In this document: positions 33,820-43,563 of the stretch, piece after piece
Numbering within the stretch: position 1 is the stretch's first letter
How the letters are laid out: every line of letters starts with the position of its first letter
Source: Phyllobacterium sophorae
Lineage (GTDB): Bacteria; Pseudomonadota; Alphaproteobacteria; Rhizobiales; Rhizobiaceae
Assembly: GCF_003010965.1 (NCBI RefSeq)
Contig: NZ_PGGM01000017.1
Coordinates: 1-64,000 of the forward strand
Direction of reading: 5' to 3'
Length of the DNA stretch: 64,000 nt
Translations under genes and position numbers: made by a program
Notes under the pieces: model-generated
What the model was told of the DNA's origin: nothing
The model's database searches: none
Seen by the model: only the letters and a program-made list of their open reading frames with translations

Positions 33820-33943
33820 CCTTCGTTATCGAATGCAACCGCTGACACAAGGGGGCGATGGCGCGCGCTGAAAAATTTCTCTATCATTCGCCTTGGCGCC
33901 GTGGCATTCCTGCGCCATCGGAAACGCACGACAGAGCGGCACC

Positions 33944-35134
33944 ATGACCCAGCAATTCATCGACCATTTGTCCCGCGAACTGGCCGGACTGAAGGAGACC
34001 GGACTATACAAGTCCGAACGTGTCATCACCTCGAAACAGGCCGGGCAGATCGAGATTTCGACAGGCGCAAAGGTGCTGAATTTCTGCGCCAACAACTATC
34101 TCGGCCTTGCCAACAATGAAGAGCTGGCGGCAGCCGGCAAGGCCGCACTCGACCGTTACGGTTACGGCATGGCCTCGGTGCGTTTCATCTGTGGCACACA
34201 GGAAGAGCATAAGCAGCTTGAAGCGCGCATCTCCAGTTTTCTTGGACTTGAAGATACGATCCTGTACTCCAGCTGTTTCGACGCCAATGGCGGCCTGTTC
34301 GAAACGCTCCTTGGTGATGAAGATGCCATCATCTCGGATGCGCTCAACCATGCATCGATCATCGATGGTGTGCGCCTTTCCAAGGCCAAGCGCTTCCGCT
34401 ATGCCAACAACGACATGGCCGCTTTGGAAGAAGAACTGAAGAAGGCCGAAGGCAGCCGCTTCAAGATGATCGCTACAGACGGCGTGTTCTCAATGGATGG
34501 CATTATCGCCAATCTTCAGGGCGTGTGTGATCTTGCAGAGAAATATGATGCGATGGTCATGGTCGATGACAGTCATGCCGTCGGTTTCGTGGGCAGCCAT
34601 GGCCGCGGCTCCGCCGAACATTGCGGTGCCGAAGGGCGCGTCGATATCATCACCGGTACCCTTGGCAAGGCGCTGGGCGGCGCATCGGGCGGCTATACAT
34701 CCGCCAAGGGCGAAGTGATCGACTGGCTGCGCCAGCGCTCGCGACCCTACCTGTTTTCCAATACGCTGGCCCCGGTCATTGCCGCAGCTTCATTGAAGGT
34801 TTTTGACCTGATCGACCAGGGCGCGGACCTGCGGGCGCGCCTCAATGCCAATGCTGCGCATTTCCGCCGGGACATGACAAAGCTTGGTTTCACCCTGGCT
34901 GGCGCCGACCACCCGATCATACCGGTGATGCTCGGCGAAGCGACGTTGGCCCAGGAGATGGCATCGCGCATGCTGGAGAAGGGCGTATACGTCATCGGCT
35001 TCGCATTTCCGGTGGTACCGAAGGGCCAGGCGCGCATTCGCACACAGATGTCTGCCGCCCACACCACGCAAGATGTCGCCCGGGCGATTGATGTCTTTGC
35101 GGAAGTAGGGCGTGATCTCGGTATCATCAAATAG
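33944..35134 (+). CDS. kbl: 2-amino-3-ketobutyrate CoA ligase (glycine C-acetyltransferase)
   Basis: A 396-residue alpha-oxoamine synthase that splits 2-amino-3-ketobutyrate with CoA to glycine and acetyl-CoA. [12 protein letters not shown] near residue 47, [19 protein letters not shown] near 85, [11 protein letters not shown] near 210 and the PLP Lys in [16 protein letters not shown] near 244 match Kbl; length equals E. coli Kbl (398). I chose the ATG giving MTQQFIDHL; an open frame 17 codons longer has no family match. It forms an operon with tdh. Confidence 0.95.
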
Positions 35135-35143
35135 GATAGATCC

Positions 35144-36181
35144 ATGTCGAACATGATGAAGGCACTGGTCAAGGCCAAGGCGCAACCGGGGATCTGGATG
35201 GAACGGGTTCCGGTTCCCGAACCTGGCCCCAACGACGTTCTGATCCGCGTCAAGAAATCCGCCATCTGCGGAACCGATGTGCATATCTACAATTGGGACC
35301 AGTGGGCAAAGGCGACGATCCCCGTGCCGATGGTGGTGGGCCATGAATTTTGCGGCGAGATCGCCGAGATCGGTTCGGCCGTAACCAAATACAAGGTCGG
35401 TCAGCGCGTTTCGGGCGAGGGCCATATCGTGTGCGGAACCTGCCGCAATTGCCGGGCGGGCAGGGGGCATCTGTGCCGCAACACGCTGGGCGTCGGCGTG
35501 CACCGGCCCGGGTCCTTCGGCGAATATGTCTGCATTCCGGAAGCCAATGTCGTGCCTATCCCCGATGACATCGCCGATGAAATTGCCGCGATCTTCGATC
35601 CGTTCGGCAATGCCGTGCACACGGCGCTGAGCTTCGATCTTGTTGGCGAGGATGTGCTTGTCACCGGCGCTGGCCCCATCGGTATCATGGGAGCGCTGGT
35701 CGCAAAGCGCTCCGGCGCCCGCAAGGTGGTGATCACGGATATCAATCCGGCACGTCTTTCACTCGCCCGCAAGCTCGGCATTGACTATGTCGTCGATGCT
35801 TCGTCGCAAAACCTCGCCGATGTCATGCGGGAAATTGGCATGACCGAAGGTTTTGATGTCGGTCTGGAAATGTCGGGCGCGGCTCCGGCCTTCCGCGACA
35901 TGATCGACAAGATGAACAATGGCGGTAAGATCGCCATCCTCGGTATTGCACCAACCGGCTTCGAAATCGATTGGAACAAGGTCATTTTCAAGATGCTTAA
36001 CCTGAAAGGCATCTATGGCCGCGAGATGTTCGAGACCTGGTACAAGATGATTGCCTTTGTCCAGGGCGGACTTGATCTGTCGCCGATCATCACGCACCGT
36101 TTGCCGATTGATGATTTCCAGGCGGGATTTGACGCAATGCGCTCCGGCAGTTCCGGCAAGGTGGTCCTGAGCTGGGACTAG
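35144..36181 (+). CDS. tdh: L-threonine 3-dehydrogenase
   Basis: A 345-residue zinc alcohol dehydrogenase family enzyme oxidising L-threonine to 2-amino-3-ketobutyrate. Catalytic zinc ligands lie in [17 protein letters not shown] (Cys about 42) and VVGHEFCGE (His/Glu about 67); the structural zinc cluster is [15 protein letters not shown]; the NAD site is [12 protein letters not shown] near 172. Nine bases separate it from kbl, whose product uses its unstable intermediate. The pair feeds threonine carbon to glycine and acetyl-CoA. Confidence 0.96.
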
Positions 36182-38513: not shown

Positions 38514-39434
38514 ATGGAACCGCCTGATGGCATGAGACGTTGTCTTCGTACCGACCGGCTTGGCCCGATAGAAAATTGTGGCGAGAAGGATTTTAGTCCA
38601 TCAATTGGGAGAACAAACTTGGGGTCGCAGGATGAATCGGAAAATAGTGCTGCCGATTGGTGGACAGTGCATTGCGGTTTGTCCCCGATCTTGGCTACGG
38701 CAATTCACAACGGCCACGCGGTCCGTCCAGCCATTGCGACCTTGATGGCGATCTCAGAAGCCGAGCGATTGCGCGAAGAAGATCCGTTCACCGCTTTCGC
38801 CGTTTGCGACGTTCCCAATCGTATCATCTTCCATCGTTCGCGCTTCGAGGTCGACCTTAACCGAGCGCGTGATGGGGCAATCTACCTTTCGCCCGAGCAG
38901 GCTTGGGGCATGGACATATGGAATGCGAAACCCGACCCAAAGTCGATAAGGGATACGCTCAGCGTCTATGATGCCTACTACTCGATGCTGAGGCATGTCT
39001 TGCGACAGCTCGAGAAACATCATGGGCGTTTCGTCGTACTCGACATTCATAGTTATAATCACCGCCGCGGCGGCCCGCACGCAGCGCCTTCTGATCCGAA
39101 AACCGCGCCCGATATCAATATCGGTACCTACTCCATGGATCGAGACCGATGGGCGCATGTTATCGATCCCTTCATGGAAAAACTGCGCGGGTTCACGTTT
39201 CGCGGGCACCGCATGGACGTGCGCGAGAATGTGGCGTTTGAAGGTAAAGGCGAGCAGACGCGATTCATTCATGAAGCGTTCCCCAGGACCGGCTGCGCCA
39301 TCGCCATCGAATTTAAAAAATTCTTCATGGATGAATGGACAGGCTTGCCGGACAAGTCAGCGCTGGCGGCCATGCGTGCTATGGTCCGCTCGACCCTACC
39401 CGTCCTGGAGGAAAGCCTGCGGGCGATGCGATGA
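38514..39434 (+). CDS. N-formylglutamate amidohydrolase-like protein
   Basis: A 306-residue protein of the N-formylglutamate amidohydrolase (HutG-like deformylase) family, zinc hydrolases that cut C-N amide bonds. The family stretch FEVDLNRARDGAIYL lies at about residues 112-126 and VVLDIHSYNHRR with the metal His at about 179; FKKFFMDEWTG is near the C-terminus. About 50 N-terminal residues have no family match. The start ATG is preceded in frame by TTG; neither has a strong Shine-Dalgarno. It overlaps the DUF1704 gene by four bases, so it is tied to that unknown pathway rather than to histidine breakdown; no hut genes are near. Confidence 0.75.
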   Translation: MEPPDGMRRCLRTDRLGPIENCGEKDFSPSIGRTNLGSQDESENSAADWWTVHCGLSPILATAIHNGHAVRPAIATLMAISEAERLREEDPFTAFAVCDVPNRIIFHRSRFEVDLNRARDGAIYLSPEQAWGMDIWNAKPDPKSIRDTLSVYDAYYSMLRHVLRQLEKHHGRFVVLDIHSYNHRRGGPHAAPSDPKTAPDINIGTYSMDRDRWAHVIDPFMEKLRGFTFRGHRMDVRENVAFEGKGEQTRFIHEAFPRTGCAIAIEFKKFFMDEWTGLPDKSALAAMRAMVRSTLPVLEESLRAMR

Positions 39435-41332
39435 GCAAGGCACAAACCAGCAAGAGATCGGCGACGGCCGTCGACATAACAGCGGTCGAGGAGGCACTTG
39501 CATCAATCAATGCCGGAAAGTCAGTGCGATGCGACCTCGACAATGGGGGGCGGATTCACATCGATCGTGCTCTCCCTTTTCTTTGCGTCCATGTGAGCGA
39601 TGGGCGCGGCGGTGACGCAGCGCTGGATATTACGTCGGCAAATGCGTCCTATCTGATCGCCCCTGATCTGGATTTCGCCGTGGCGGCTGTCGAAGTAATT
39701 GCCGGCGCCATGACGGAGCGCTTTACCGCCTTCGTGGTGCTCGACGTCGGCGAACTCGCGCAGGATAGGCTTTTAAGTGATGATGCCCCCTATCTCCTGC
39801 CTTTCGAAATCACCCTTTCCGGCACCGATCAACCGGAAACCCATGCTGCGTTAGACGGTTTTGCCTCAGCGGTTGGGAGCATCGAGGCGAAATTCCGTTC
39901 GCCCCGTGTCGATAGACGTCGTGCAGTAGACGATCCGCACGCCCTTCTTGCCGCGCGCTTGCGCGGCTTTCCCTGCGTGACCGTTCGTTTTGCACCAATC
40001 TACCGGGTGCCTGGGTCCGAGAACACCTATCCCGACCTGCGCGAAAGGGTGGTGGCCAACATTTTCGATGCCGGGTTGCAGGCGATCGCCGCATTCCTGA
40101 AGGCGGCCGGCATTTTCAAGTTGCCGACGCATCGCGCGCTCGGGCGGCGCGCCTTTGTCGACGCTGTCGAACGTGCCGATCGCTGTATCGACGAAATCGC
40201 CGCGACATTCGACTTTCTGCTGGCGGTCACGCCCATCAACGCCGATGCGGCCTGGCACGATTTTAAGGCGAACGGATTTCAGCGTCCGCCCCAATTCCTC
40301 TACCGGCCGCTAACCGTCCAGGTAAATGTCGAAAAGAAAAAGCTCTTCTCTATTGCCTTCGACCGCTTTGAAGATCCCGTTCTTTTCAATCTCTACCGCG
40401 AAAAGCAACAGGAACTCGATTTGCAATTGTCGATGCTCTTCGCCCGGGAAACGCCTCGCTTTATGGAGTTCAGCCGCGTCCTTTACGGACGCGTCGAACC
40501 TGGCCTGCTGCATGCGGCAAAAGACATCCTGGCCAAAACGGCGGGTCCCGGGGGCGAAATTGCAGGCGGCGGCGGTCGGGCCGGAAGCGTCGATTGCTAC
40601 GTCATCGAGCAGGCGGCGCGTACCATGATCGAAATGTATCGCAGGCAATATTCCGGTTTTGAGGCGACGGTCGAGCTGCGCGACGACCTGCCAGCGGGTC
40701 TTTTGGTTTCGGGGGGCCGCCTTCTGATTTCTCGCAGCACCAGCATGACGCGGCGCAGACTGACCGCTCTCCTCAGTCATGAGATCGGTGTTCACCTATT
40801 GACCTATTTCAATGGGTCGGCTCAAGGGCTGCGGTTGTTCCGGACGGGCCTTGCGGGGTATGAGGGCGTGCAGGAAGGGCTTGCAGTCTTGGCTGAATAT
40901 CTCGTTGGCGGCATGACCACTGAACGCCTGCGCCTCATTGCAGCCCGCGTTGTCGCATGCGCGGCGATGCTGGAAGGCGCATCGTTCCAAGAGACATTCC
41001 ATGCACTGGTTCGCGACTATGGCTTCAGCGAAATCAGCGCCTTCCATATGACGCTTAGACTATATCGAGGAGGAGGTCTGGCAAAGGACGCGATCTATCT
41101 GCGCGGCCTCCTGGAGGTGCTCAAGCATCTGGGCAGCGGCGGCGCACTCGATCCGTTCTGGATGGGGAAAATCGCTGCGTCGCATTTCGGTGTCATGCAG
41201 GAATTGAATTCCCGCGGTCTGCTGAAAGCACCGGAAATAAGGCCGGTTTTTCTTTTGCATCCGCAGGCTCAGAAGCGACTGGAGAAAGCTCGTTCTGGCC
41301 TCCTGCCCGTCGAAATGATCGCAAGTTCGTAA
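39431..41332 (+). CDS. DUF1704 / QEGLA-motif putative metallocarboxypeptidase
   Basis: A 633-residue protein of the TIGR02421/DUF1704 family, sometimes called flavohemoglobin expression-modulating QEGLA protein. It holds HEIGVH at residues 450-455 (an HExxxH metal motif) and QEGLA at 481-485, which would supply the third ligand. The same family in animals contains the tubulin tyrosine carboxypeptidases (MATCAP/TMCP), so a C-terminal amino-acid-removing peptidase is a fair inference. The ATG overlaps the upstream stop (ATGA); the frame is open 32 codons further up inside the previous gene. The substrate in bacteria is unknown. Confidence 0.82.
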   Translation: MSKAQTSKRSATAVDITAVEEALASINAGKSVRCDLDNGGRIHIDRALPFLCVHVSDGRGGDAALDITSANASYLIAPDLDFAVAAVEVIAGAMTERFTAFVVLDVGELAQDRLLSDDAPYLLPFEITLSGTDQPETHAALDGFASAVGSIEAKFRSPRVDRRRAVDDPHALLAARLRGFPCVTVRFAPIYRVPGSENTYPDLRERVVANIFDAGLQAIAAFLKAAGIFKLPTHRALGRRAFVDAVERADRCIDEIAATFDFLLAVTPINADAAWHDFKANGFQRPPQFLYRPLTVQVNVEKKKLFSIAFDRFEDPVLFNLYREKQQELDLQLSMLFARETPRFMEFSRVLYGRVEPGLLHAAKDILAKTAGPGGEIAGGGGRAGSVDCYVIEQAARTMIEMYRRQYSGFEATVELRDDLPAGLLVSGGRLLISRSTSMTRRRLTALLSHEIGVHLLTYFNGSAQGLRLFRTGLAGYEGVQEGLAVLAEYLVGGMTTERLRLIAARVVACAAMLEGASFQETFHALVRDYGFSEISAFHMTLRLYRGGGLAKDAIYLRGLLEVLKHLGSGGALDPFWMGKIAASHFGVMQELNSRGLLKAPEIRPVFLLHPQAQKRLEKARSGLLPVEMIASS

Positions 41333-41351
41333 CCTGGTGTAGGATCACTCC

Positions 41352-42398
41352 ATGCGCATAGCATTCTTTGTCAACTCCATCGAAGGCGAAACGCCGCGTT
41401 ACACGACCACTCTGCTGGCGCTCGCCGCGCTCAGCCGTGGACATGAGATCTACTATCTAACGCCTGGCGATTTCGTGCTGCGTGCCGATAATAGTCTCAT
41501 GGTGCGCGCCACCGTACTGCCCGGTACCACCTATAAAAAATTGGAAACCTTTCATAAAGACTTGCAGAGCGACAAGACCAAGATCGAAACGATCGACGTG
41601 CGCGAAATCGACGTGATCTTCCTGCGCAATGACCCGGCACAGGACGCCGCGGAGCGGCCATGGGCTACACATGTCGGCGCGATGTTTGGTCGACTCGCAT
41701 CCGAACGCGGGGTGCTGGTCGTCAACGATCCCACTGGCCTCGCGCTCGCTCAAAACAAACTTTATTTTCAGGACTTTCCTGAATCCGTGCGACCGATCAC
41801 GTTGATTTCCAAAAGTATCGAAGAAATCCGCGCTTTCATCGAAAAACAGCCGATGGGCGCCATCGTCAAACCTTTGCAGGGGTCCGGTGGCAAGAACGTT
41901 TTCAAAATCGATTCGCCAAAGGATGCCAATCTTAACCAGATATTCGAAGCGGTCAGCGGCGAAGGCTACCTCATCGCTCAAGGCTATCTGCCCGAGGCCA
42001 AGGCAGGTGATATTCGCCTCTTCGTGATGAACGGAAAGCCGCTGAAACGAGACGGAAAATATGCCGCCTTTCGCCGGGTGCCGGCAAAAGGTGAAGTGCG
42101 CTCCAATATCCATGTCGCAGGCACCGCCGAGATCGTGGAGATTAACGATAAGATTTTAGCAGTCGCCGAAATGGTGCGACCAAAACTGGTACAGGACGGG
42201 ATGTTCCTTGTTGGCCTTGATATCGTCGCCGACAAGATCCTTGAGATCAACGTCTTCACCCCGGGCGGGCTTTCGAGCATGTCGGAGATGTACCAAACCG
42301 ATTTTGCCGAGAGCGTGATCTTGGCGCTTGAAAACAAGCTGACGATCCGTGAGGCGTATCCGGCCTCGGTGTCCAATCGACAATTGGCAGCGCTGTAA
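41352..42398 (+). CDS. ATP-grasp ligase, glutathione-synthetase-like
   Basis: A 348-residue ATP-grasp protein similar to prokaryotic glutathione synthetase (GshB, about 315 residues). N-terminal Rossmann-like MRIAFFVNSIEGE, ATP-binding GAIVKPLQGSGGKNVF near residue 175, glycine-rich RSNIHVAGTA near 258 and metal-binding LEINVFTPGGLSSM near 298 are visible. GshB itself ends this motif with E-N-SPTG, so the substrate pocket differs. It lies 19 bases after the DUF1704 gene. It likely forms an amide or peptide bond that one of the two hydrolases can cut. Confidence 0.82.
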   Translation: MRIAFFVNSIEGETPRYTTTLLALAALSRGHEIYYLTPGDFVLRADNSLMVRATVLPGTTYKKLETFHKDLQSDKTKIETIDVREIDVIFLRNDPAQDAAERPWATHVGAMFGRLASERGVLVVNDPTGLALAQNKLYFQDFPESVRPITLISKSIEEIRAFIEKQPMGAIVKPLQGSGGKNVFKIDSPKDANLNQIFEAVSGEGYLIAQGYLPEAKAGDIRLFVMNGKPLKRDGKYAAFRRVPAKGEVRSNIHVAGTAEIVEINDKILAVAEMVRPKLVQDGMFLVGLDIVADKILEINVFTPGGLSSMSEMYQTDFAESVILALENKLTIREAYPASVSNRQLAAL

Positions 42399-42554: not shown

Positions 42555-43235
42555 TCACGATCGCCCATCGCCCAAAACCTCTTTCAGCCGGTTCAGATCA
42601 TGGACGAATTTGATTTGCTCCGCATTCGCTGCGTGCCGATCACGGATTCTGAGAATGTATGACGGATGAATGGTGACAAGCACAGGCGGCAGGTTTTGCG
42701 GACGAAAGATCGTGCCACGATCCTTTGTAATACGAATCGCTTTGCCGACTAAATAACCTGCGGCCGTGGTTCCAAGGGCGACGATGATTTTCGGCTCGAT
42801 CAGTTTGAGTTCGCTGCGCAACCACCAGGCACACGTTCGTATTTCGCCAGCATTGGGCTTTGAATGCAGCCGCCGTTTGCCGCGCTGCGTGAATTTGAAG
42901 TGTTTGACTGTGTTGGTGATGTAGCAGCGCTCCCGGTCAATGCCGGCCCTTGACAGGGATTCATTCAAAACGGCGCCCGCAGGCCCGACAAAGGGCCTAC
43001 CTGCCAGGTCCTCCTTGTCACCCGGTTGCTCACCGATAAGAACGATCTCTGCCTGCATCGGCCCCTCGCCAAAGACGGTCTGTGTAGCATGTTTGTAGAG
43101 ATCACAGCGCTTGCAATGTTCGGCCTGTGCTTTGAGTTCGCGCAACGAGCCGACATTGGCTGTTTCGCCTTCCCGAAGATCAAACGTATCCATGACGACC
43201 ACATTGCGGCTGGTAGGACACCCGCCCTCGATCAT
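42555..43235 (-). CDS. Uracil-DNA glycosylase, UdgX type
   Basis: A 226-residue uracil-DNA glycosylase superfamily protein. Motif GEQPGDKEDLAGRPFVGPAG begins near residue 68, two Fe-S candidate Cys lie in HCKRCDLYKHA (41, 44) and one in IRTCAWWL (about 135), and the late motif HPSYILR is near 190. The insertion KRRLHSKP (residues 120-127) matches the KRRIH loop that defines UdgX, whose His attaches covalently to the abasic DNA after uracil removal. I chose the ATG with AGGAC nine bases upstream; a second ATG 14 codons later is an alternative. The frame is open about 80 codons more but that part looks non-coding. Confidence 0.87.
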   Translation of the reverse strand: MIEGGCPTSRNVVVMDTFDLREGETANVGSLRELKAQAEHCKRCDLYKHATQTVFGEGPMQAEIVLIGEQPGDKEDLAGRPFVGPAGAVLNESLSRAGIDRERCYITNTVKHFKFTQRGKRRLHSKPNAGEIRTCAWWLRSELKLIEPKIIVALGTTAAGYLVGKAIRITKDRGTIFRPQNLPPVLVTIHPSYILRIRDRHAANAEQIKFVHDLNRLKEVLGDGRS

Positions 43236-43422
43236 TCTGTTTTCGTCCTGCCGCTCTAACGCGGCAGCAATGCGCAGGTTCCCAAGGGGTGCGCAAGCTC
43301 TCGGATTTGAGCGTGGACGCGTCGGCCGCAGCGCATGGAAGCTTTCGAAATCGTCGCCGTCCAAACAGCCAGCGGTTGCAGGGCGTTCCGTTCTCTGAAT
43401 GCCACTGAAATATGAGCAAATT

Positions 43423-43468
43423 TTGTGCAGGCATAATAAATAGGCAGAAGCTTCCCGCCGCAGCACAA
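43423..43468. promoter_or_regulatory. Candidate enhancer half-sites upstream of the nrt-like operon
   Basis: TTGTGC (43423-43428) and GCACAA (43463-43468) form inverted half-sites, each inside a longer AAATTT-flanked match, about 100-140 bases upstream of a sigma-54 promoter. Enhancer-binding proteins such as NtrC or NtrC-like regulators bind at such distances. The same half-sites occur in the dctA activator site but with an 8-base spacer. The rest of the 43236-43563 gap shows nothing else I recognise. Confidence 0.35.
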
Positions 43469-43563
43469 ATTTCACGCTTGGGCCGGGGAACCTCGGTACT
43501 CCATGTGAGCGGCCAGCGAAAATTGTTTATTGTTTTCAACAAACTACCTGATCTATCGGAAAG

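Follow-up and report, generated by a model that had tools for sequence, protein, structure and literature searches.

Three adjacent genes of Phyllobacterium sophorae, in the 64,000-nucleotide stretch of contig NZ_PGGM01000017.1 analysed here (positions 1 to 64,000 of the forward strand; "the window"), encode an amidohydrolase of the N-formylglutamate amidohydrolase (FGase) family, a metallopeptidase of the MATCAP/DUF1704 family and a GshB-like ATP-grasp ligase, called FG, MC and GS below. The trio is ancient and widespread, and is not a chance association because it is conserved across phyla; the three genes very probably form a conserved functional unit. Our leading but still tentative reading is a cycle in which the ligase makes a small acidic peptide and the hydrolases break it down, with a link to low salt in one lineage at least. 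The features of the trio in the window are as follows:

38619..39434, + strand: FGase-family amidohydrolase (FG), start inferred, assigned by its PF05013 match and conserved residues
39431..41332, + strand: MATCAP/DUF1704/TIGR02421 metallopeptidase (MC), 633 aa, assigned by PF08014 and TIGR02421
39482..40216, + strand: degenerate FGase-fold N-terminal domain of MC, lacking the FGase catalytic residues, assigned by hhalign and Foldseek
40259..41293, + strand: MATCAP catalytic domain of MC, assigned by its PF08014 match
40778..40795, + strand: HEIGVH (HExxxH) metal-binding motif of MC, from sequence and alignment
40871..40885, + strand: QEGLA motif of MC, a putative third metal ligand by analogy
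41352..42398, + strand: GshB-like ATP-grasp ligase (GS), clade A, 348 aa, assigned by NF009110 and the tree

The genes lie head to tail on the + strand. The sequence-only reading had MC overlapping FG by 4 bases and GS beginning 19 bases after MC, and both this arrangement and its family assignments were borne out; the 4-base overlap is with the FG stop. FG matches PF05013 (FGase) with E 4e-22 (79.9 bits, cut-off 28.9), while MC scores 305.4 bits against PF08014 (MATCAP, the DUF1704 family; cut-off 27) and also exceeds the TIGR02421 cut-off (370.9 bits, 338.65 needed). GS contains GSH-S_ATP (E 5e-50) and GSH-S_N (E 4e-14) domains, and belongs to the glutathione synthetase subfamily NF009110 (472.1 bits, cut-off 408). 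It falls below the cut-offs of both canonical glutathione synthase models (TIGR01380, 204.8 vs 299.05; NF003573, 212.5 vs 272) and of the RimK alpha-L-glutamate ligase model TIGR00768 (75.5 vs 143.4), and it matches the looser Pfam RimK domain (49.6 bits, cut-off 21). FG likewise falls below the cut-off of the HutG N-formylglutamate deformylase model TIGR02017 (25.7 vs 278.75). Canonical glutathione and hut roles are thus disfavoured because both cut-offs are missed, and the remark that no hut or glutathione genes lie nearby holds for the five neighbours scanned by profile. By sequence, the best solved-structure relative of GS is 1gsa, and no solved structure was found for FG or MC at E <= 0.1.

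The earlier FG start at 38514, giving a 307-aa frame, is doubtful; the open frame extends back to 38511. Full-length FG relatives (e.g. L151, L153, L156 and L159) begin a few residues before a conserved tryptophan, which is W50/W51 of the 307-aa frame. The FG start would more plausibly be the in-frame TTG at 38619, preceded 7 nt upstream by GGGAG, which yields 271 aa, a length like that of the relatives. Elsewhere the genome holds a second GshB-family gene at C11:413808, which reaches 250.9 bits with GSH-S_ATP compared with 171.8 for GS; on this GSH-S_ATP score we provisionally take it as the genome's canonical GshB. The genome has a single MATCAP gene and six FGase-family genes, FG and five others. 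The closest relatives found are in Phyllobacterium, with 81% identity in P. brassicacearum and 94.6% identity for a relative on the 1.6-Mb replicon of Phyllobacterium sp. A18/5-2.

Conservation of the trio was followed in several samples. When 84,980 species genomes were scanned with a MATCAP alignment, at least 574 relatives were recovered; the best 80 loci were kept, a sample that leans to the window's own type. FG, MC and GS are all present in 76 of these 80 loci, spanning about ten phyla, and the order FG-MC-GS on one strand is kept in 75 of the 76 (L147 is rearranged; in L131 MC and GS are separated by an MgtE gene). At three incomplete loci (L143, L145 and L150) a contig end cuts at the missing gene, and in L137 no FG was found. 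The 27 loci outside the rhizobial and related alphaproteobacterial block come, according to their record titles, from Planctomycetota, Verrucomicrobia, Kiritimatiellae, Gemmatimonadota, Poribacteria, Calditrichaeota, Campylobacterales, Epsilonproteobacteria, Acidobacteria, Deltaproteobacteria, Magnetococcales and Bacteroidetes. The trio is accordingly kept well beyond close relatives of P. sophorae.

Sampling by ligase gave lower figures. In Planctomycetota (the phylum of a Phycisphaerae genome), NF009110 exceeds its cut-off in 9 of 149 genomes, two of which also belong to the discovery set. Among the 12 regions fetched, MATCAP is present in 10 and the full trio in 7; L166, L169 (cut) and L172 are without FG, and L167 and L171 contain the ligase alone. 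In the phylum of a Bacteroidales genome, MATCAP was detected at E <= 1e-30 in 10 of 198 genomes, that central genome included. The window's own phylum was sampled with 398 genomes, in which a TIGR02421 protein occurs in 47, at 53 places; 14 of the 40 regions fetched contain the ligase and 26 have MATCAP without it. Most of the ligase-less MATCAPs in this sample are shorter frames of roughly 380-570 aa. Pooled tallies count two loci twice (L040/L106 and L054/L149).

Several observations concern the genomic setting of these genes. In many rhizobia the trio is located on megaplasmids or chromids; 127 plasmid records (not all rhizobial) have a MATCAP match, and 113 of them cover at least 80% of MATCAP. 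The trio of Sinorhizobium meliloti 1021 (L241) occupies pSymB 1122996-1126740, downstream of what appear by eye to be copper ATPase and glycosyltransferase genes. On a plasmid of Rhizobium sp. RCAM05350 (L133) each trio gene is found in two tblastn pieces, reflecting operon decay or frame errors. MATCAPs of about 430-570 aa with no ligase or FGase found nearby (L066-L079) are common in other Pseudomonadota. A viral contig (L160, IMGVR_UViG_3300031379_000384) has a truncated MATCAP fragment and a ligase, and genes that look phage-like by eye, and similar to those of L160, lie near a Planctomycetota trio (L139, 2346-5144), where a prophage may adjoin. Carriage of the system by phages was considered and rejected: the evidence amounts to this one truncated MATCAP-ligase pair and to four phage records with GshB-like matches of 28-32% identity.

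The catalytic residues of both hydrolases are strongly conserved. The HExxxH and QEGLA motifs noted earlier are MC residues 450-455 and 481-485, and H450, E451, H455, Q481, E482, G483 and A485 are invariant in an alignment of 13 proteins. Loss of these residues in orthologues, which would have counted against the earlier proposal, is not seen: the pattern HExxxH..xEG is kept in 113 of 114 MATCAP proteins of at least 300 aa from loci that also have a ligase, the sole exception being the fragmented gene of L133. QEGLA would supply the third metal ligand, an assignment drawn from the EEG motif of TMCP1 (PMC10499314). In FG, residues H66, G68, R111, D115, N117 and D178 (307-aa numbering) are identical in 100 of 100 rows, and the wider set of columns H66, G68, E89-D91, R111, D115, N117, R118, D178, H180 and E267 is kept in 98-100 of 100 rows.

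MC also carries the remains of a second FGase. Its N-terminal 245 residues align with an intact FGase domain that is fused to MATCAP in other Pseudomonadota, and hhalign matches this region both to the FG profile (93.5%, E 2.3e-7) and to the live fused FG domain (95.8%, E 7.4e-9). In the alignment the FGase catalytic residues are absent from the N-terminal domain of the window's MC. A live FGase-MATCAP fusion occurs in five Pseudomonadota loci of the first set fetched (L041, L043, L045, L046 and L050), in whose fetched regions no separate FG was found; in L044 the fused FGase domain is itself partly degenerate. Two arrangements can thus be distinguished: type A has a live FG gene and a dead FG domain on MC, and type B has one live fused domain, which in L179 and L180 is split from MATCAP into two open reading frames (ORFs). 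The N-domain model (pLDDT 86, pTM 0.82) matches amidase-3, carboxypeptidase and aminopeptidase structures in Foldseek; the eighth-ranked match is the FGase 2q7s (prob 1.00, E 3.4e-4), with modest TM-scores of 0.37-0.40. The whole-MC model (pLDDT 82, pTM 0.64) matches metallocarboxypeptidases, including M32, as well as a DUF885 protein, and these matches are weak (best 1.3e-4, TM about 0.3, rmsd 12-19, four rows under 0.001), with 2q7s at 0.02; the 50 rows listed do not include the solved structure of human MATCAP. Purine nucleoside phosphorylases are found among the matches of both models.

The ligases fall into two groups. In a midpoint-rooted drawing of a tree of 78 ligases, clade A contains 66 rows, including the window's GS, and clade B contains 11, with long, well-supported branches between them; the second GshB of the genome attaches to clade B through a very long branch, so that its placement is unsure. 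Both clades sit with FGase and MATCAP, clade B mainly with the fused or split FGase-MATCAP. Two Bacteroidota loci (L174 and L176) carry both, in the order GS-B, FG, MC, GS-A, and two to three ligases per locus are found in L135, L139, L140, L143, L163, L164 and L168, where the ligases long enough for the tree belong to clade A. The occurrence of divergent extra ligases in one operon suggests step-wise or varied bond formation and not a single glutathione step. A GS loop of the form RSN.H.GG, which looked RimK-like, was considered as a guide to substrate and discarded because the motif recurs in the second GshB of the genome.

The link to salt comes from the marine bacterium Photobacterium damselae. 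Neighbouring genes are usually numbered with locus tags five apart. In RNA-seq of P. damselae RM-71 comparing 1% with 3% NaCl, A0J47_RS17020 ("Glutathione synthase GshB") is up 38.42-fold and A0J47_RS17025 ("Flavohemoglobin expression-modulating QEGLA motif protein") is up 27.51-fold at the lower salinity; both lie on chromosome II, and RS17020 is among the top low-salt-induced genes and is treated by the authors as a glutathione synthetase (PMC10308900). These two genes are very probably the trio system, because 21 of 23 related loci have a ligase (best match clade B) next to a fused FGase-MATCAP; Vibrio sp. HDW18 and L266 do not. Of the 23, three are named records; the other 20 were chosen among the high-identity matches in a family sample of 121 genomes, 48 of which gave a match, so that weaker matches, some of them short MATCAPs, stand outside the count. 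All 23 loci are flanked by maoP and by a LysR-type regulator, which we presume to resemble HdfR. Relatives of this regulator are also found beside nine trio loci (L041, L042, L045, L046, L050, L052, L054 with its duplicate L149, L057 and L124) and beside a broken MATCAP locus (L065); the 60 control regions have none. A different kind of regulator, a sigma-54 activator, is encoded near the trio or ligase in L131, L139, L140, L153, L170 and L171 (Pfam-confirmed in L139 and L153), and similar genes occur in 4 of the 60 controls.

A second line of evidence comes from neighbouring genes. Discovery loci outside the alphaproteobacteria have MscS, CorA, MgtE, CNNM/CorC, SLC12 and Na/H-antiporter genes nearby, examples of which were confirmed with Pfam. 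Such genes were counted by tblastn (E <= 1e-10) with queries from nine loci, seven of them in the discovery set, and were found in 11 of 27 discovery regions, including 4 of the 20 not used as queries, in 4 of 14 own-phylum trio regions, in 1 of 12 MATCAP-only regions (a count that omits the 14 regions L066-L079), and in 2 of 60 controls, 59 of which are from system-bearing genomes and one (L240) from a MATCAP-only genome. The newly fetched regions are the fairest test, since nine of the loci had themselves supplied queries. They gave 6 of 20 and, once an apparent SLC12 gene in L177 had been withdrawn (Pfam identifies a generic amino-acid permease), 5 of 20, as against 2 of 60 controls (P 0.009). 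Pfam later found an antiporter in L165 and an MscS in L180 that tblastn had missed, and these were left uncounted because the controls had been scanned by tblastn alone. In 15 genomes outside the discovery set, Pfam places MscS within 10 kb in three (G468, G460 and G705; 0.46 expected, P 0.011), and MscS or CorA (the latter in G554) in four (0.56 expected, P 0.003); these P values are indicative, as the two families were picked after a tblastn look at the same genomes. We regard the association with ion-transport genes as probably genuine; it is by no means universal and is almost missing from rhizobia. It appears slightly more likely than not that, over some part of its range at least, the trio serves adaptation to salt or ions.

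The substrate can be approached from neighbours and from homology. An SDF sodium:dicarboxylate symporter gene, of a family of glutamate/aspartate carriers, adjoins the clade-B ligase on the same strand at less than 0.1 kb in four Bacteroidota loci (L174, L176, L179 and L180). In L177, where no FG was found, a gene of the AstE/AspA type (succinylglutamate desuccinylase/aspartoacylase) follows the ligase. The human TMCPs presumably belong to the Pfam MATCAP family. These enzymes cut C-terminal tyrosine and glutamate and trim poly-glutamate chains (PMC10499314). The three hints point to an acidic peptide and are no proof, and we regard an acidic peptide as a possible, still tentative, identity for the substrate or product.

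The cycle we propose would run as follows. The GshB-like ligase would activate a carboxylate with ATP and join an amino acid to it; the MATCAP carboxypeptidase, with its dead FGase-fold domain in front, would remove C-terminal residues; and the live FGase would cleave an N-terminal acyl or amide bond beside an acidic residue. The peptide would most likely contain glutamate or aspartate, and in at least one lineage the system would be part of the response to low external salt, that is, to hypo-osmotic conditions or low ionic strength. The acidic substrate, the small soluble product, the cytosolic site and the directions of the reactions are inferred, and the window's own operon may share the low-salt purpose, an argument from homology. 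One part of the earlier proposal, that one amide-bond maker and two cutters act as a unit, is well supported by cross-phylum conservation, by the FGase-MATCAP fusion and by the retained catalytic residues. It had further offered either a small-peptide metabolite pathway or peptide-tail editing, and the former stands as the best reading while the latter found no direct support.

Several points weigh against the proposed cycle. The salt data come from one species, P. damselae, to which the window's operon is tied by homology, and there the identity of the two genes is inferred from generic names and from the layout of related loci. A one-way storage model leaves unexplained why the ligase and the peptidase are induced together. 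Among alphaproteobacterial regions, the window's own kind, just 2 of 53 have ion genes by tblastn, looser clustering puts an MscS-like gene in 8, and the window's five scanned neighbours include no ion gene. The ion-gene idea was itself prompted by the discovery loci, and nine of the tested loci supplied the queries; the test on new regions is weak when set against controls from the same genomes (5/20 vs 1/20, P 0.09), and drops to 4 of 18 without G402, a genome already in the discovery set that supplied two of the 20 regions. The four SDF neighbours are probably one inherited arrangement, and the AstE/AspA neighbour is a single case.

Other explanations have to be weighed against the same evidence. 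The ligase could make glutathione or a gamma-Glu-Cys-X analogue that the two hydrolases recycle. GS does belong to NF009110, which is named for glutathione synthetase, has 1gsa as its best solved relative, and shares the R-P, K-P-L, G-G and R-S-N motifs with the genome's other GshB, which itself groups with clade B; L140 adds a transporter with a Na_H_Exchanger plus TrkA_N layout, which we take to be that of the glutathione-gated Kef proteins. However, GS falls short of the canonical GshB models, a better-scoring GshB-family gene is present elsewhere in the genome and is parted by long branches from both clades, and one to three different ligases occur per locus, so we consider this thiol-metabolism explanation unlikely. 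Decidedly unlikely is editing of protein C-terminal tails, in which the ligase and MATCAP would add and remove tail residues in the manner of tubulin tyrosine ligase and the tubulin carboxypeptidases. MATCAP homology and the known tubulin chemistry speak for it (PMC10499314), as does the distant relationship of GS to RimK-type protein glutamate ligases. Nevertheless, GS keeps the GshB N-terminal domain and falls below the RimK cut-off, and no candidate target stood out in the 60 largest neighbour clusters. To our knowledge the known members with a GshB N-terminal domain use small substrates, and we know of no role for an FGase in tail editing.

An osmoprotective dipeptide like N-acetylglutaminylglutamine amide (NAGGN), made at high salt and degraded when salt falls, is suggested by a few record titles that hint at marine sources and by the ion and osmotic neighbours. 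This model was dropped because the ligase itself, together with the peptidase, rises at low salt in the P. damselae RNA-seq (PMC10308900), and we rate it very unlikely. We give hardly any credence to ordinary salvage of amino acids and peptides, with the hydrolases degrading N-acylated peptides and the ligase a loosely linked passenger. The FGase and carboxypeptidase families are degradative, the genome has six FGase-family genes, and MATCAP occurs without ligase in 26 of 40 own-phylum regions, but the ligase is kept with both hydrolases in about ten phyla and in both clades, and extra ligase copies lie within the operon. Finally, the trio might mature a gene-encoded precursor, since ATP-grasp ligases mature graspetides (PMC8939145). 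A search for precursor peptides (ORFs of 20-110 aa, at most 1.2 kb from the trio, 15 largest clusters) found none shared beyond related rhizobia: the largest small-ORF clusters cover 4-7 rhizobial loci or are the MATCAP gene's own tail. The trio genes, moreover, almost abut in the window, and a ribosomal peptide cluster is scarcely credible.

Each of the enzyme families is known, and the closest kind of system is the non-ribosomal ligase-plus-peptidase peptide system. GS shares with GshB/NF009110 (PRK12458) the two-domain GshB architecture, the ATP-grasp motifs and a score above the NF009110 cut-off, but it misses the canonical models, and its relatives sit with MATCAP in 10 of the 12 ligase-sampled regions. 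MC shares the Pfam MATCAP family and the HExxxH plus xEG metal site with the TMCP tubulin carboxypeptidases, but it is bacterial, has a degenerate FGase domain in front, lies in an operon with a ligase, and is not expected to act on tubulin. FG has the family and catalytic residues of HutG, but misses its cut-off, has no hut gene among the scanned neighbours, and is coupled or fused to MATCAP. The NAGGN osmoprotectant trio consists of an amidotransferase, a GNAT/ATP-grasp synthetase and an M42 peptidase, a ligase-plus-peptidase logic tied to salinity. The three-gene logic is common to both systems; however, none of the NAGGN families is among the matches of FG, MC and GS at E <= 0.01, and NAGGN is a high-salt system, whereas the only expression data for a system of this kind, from P. 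damselae, point to low salt. In eukaryotes the tubulin tyrosine ligase TTL is an ATP-grasp ligase, and its cycle with the tubulin carboxypeptidases likewise pairs such a ligase with a MATCAP-type carboxypeptidase. The window's system differs in its GshB-type ligase, in its extra FGase, and in that no protein target was identified.

Two other features of the window lie beside the trio. A gene for a UdgX-family uracil-DNA binding protein (42555-43475, - strand; TIGR03914 over cut-off) is convergent with the trio operon, and two genes at 33893-36181 resemble, by eye, glycine C-acetyltransferase and threonine 3-dehydrogenase.

No paper on the trio or on its salinity link was found in the literature covered, which did not extend to a 2009 survey that dealt with the gene neighbourhoods of ATP-grasp amidoligases and may list the set. 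In its boldest form, which we think unlikely to hold in every part, the reading is that the trio constitutes an unrecognised acidic-peptide system in about ten phyla, whose product is made and dismantled as external salt falls, whose carboxypeptidase is the bacterial stock that gave rise to the eukaryotic tubulin-tail carboxypeptidases, and which has gone unnoticed under the labels "glutathione synthase", "N-formylglutamate amidohydrolase" and "flavohemoglobin expression-modulating protein". If this is true, many genomes would carry a misnamed peptide pathway (at least 574 MATCAP relatives, with the trio in 76 of the best 80 loci). It would also add a hypo-osmotic metabolite and would give the tubulin-processing MATCAP family a bacterial biochemistry for comparison, and since S. 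meliloti 1021 carries the trio on pSymB, direct testing is possible.

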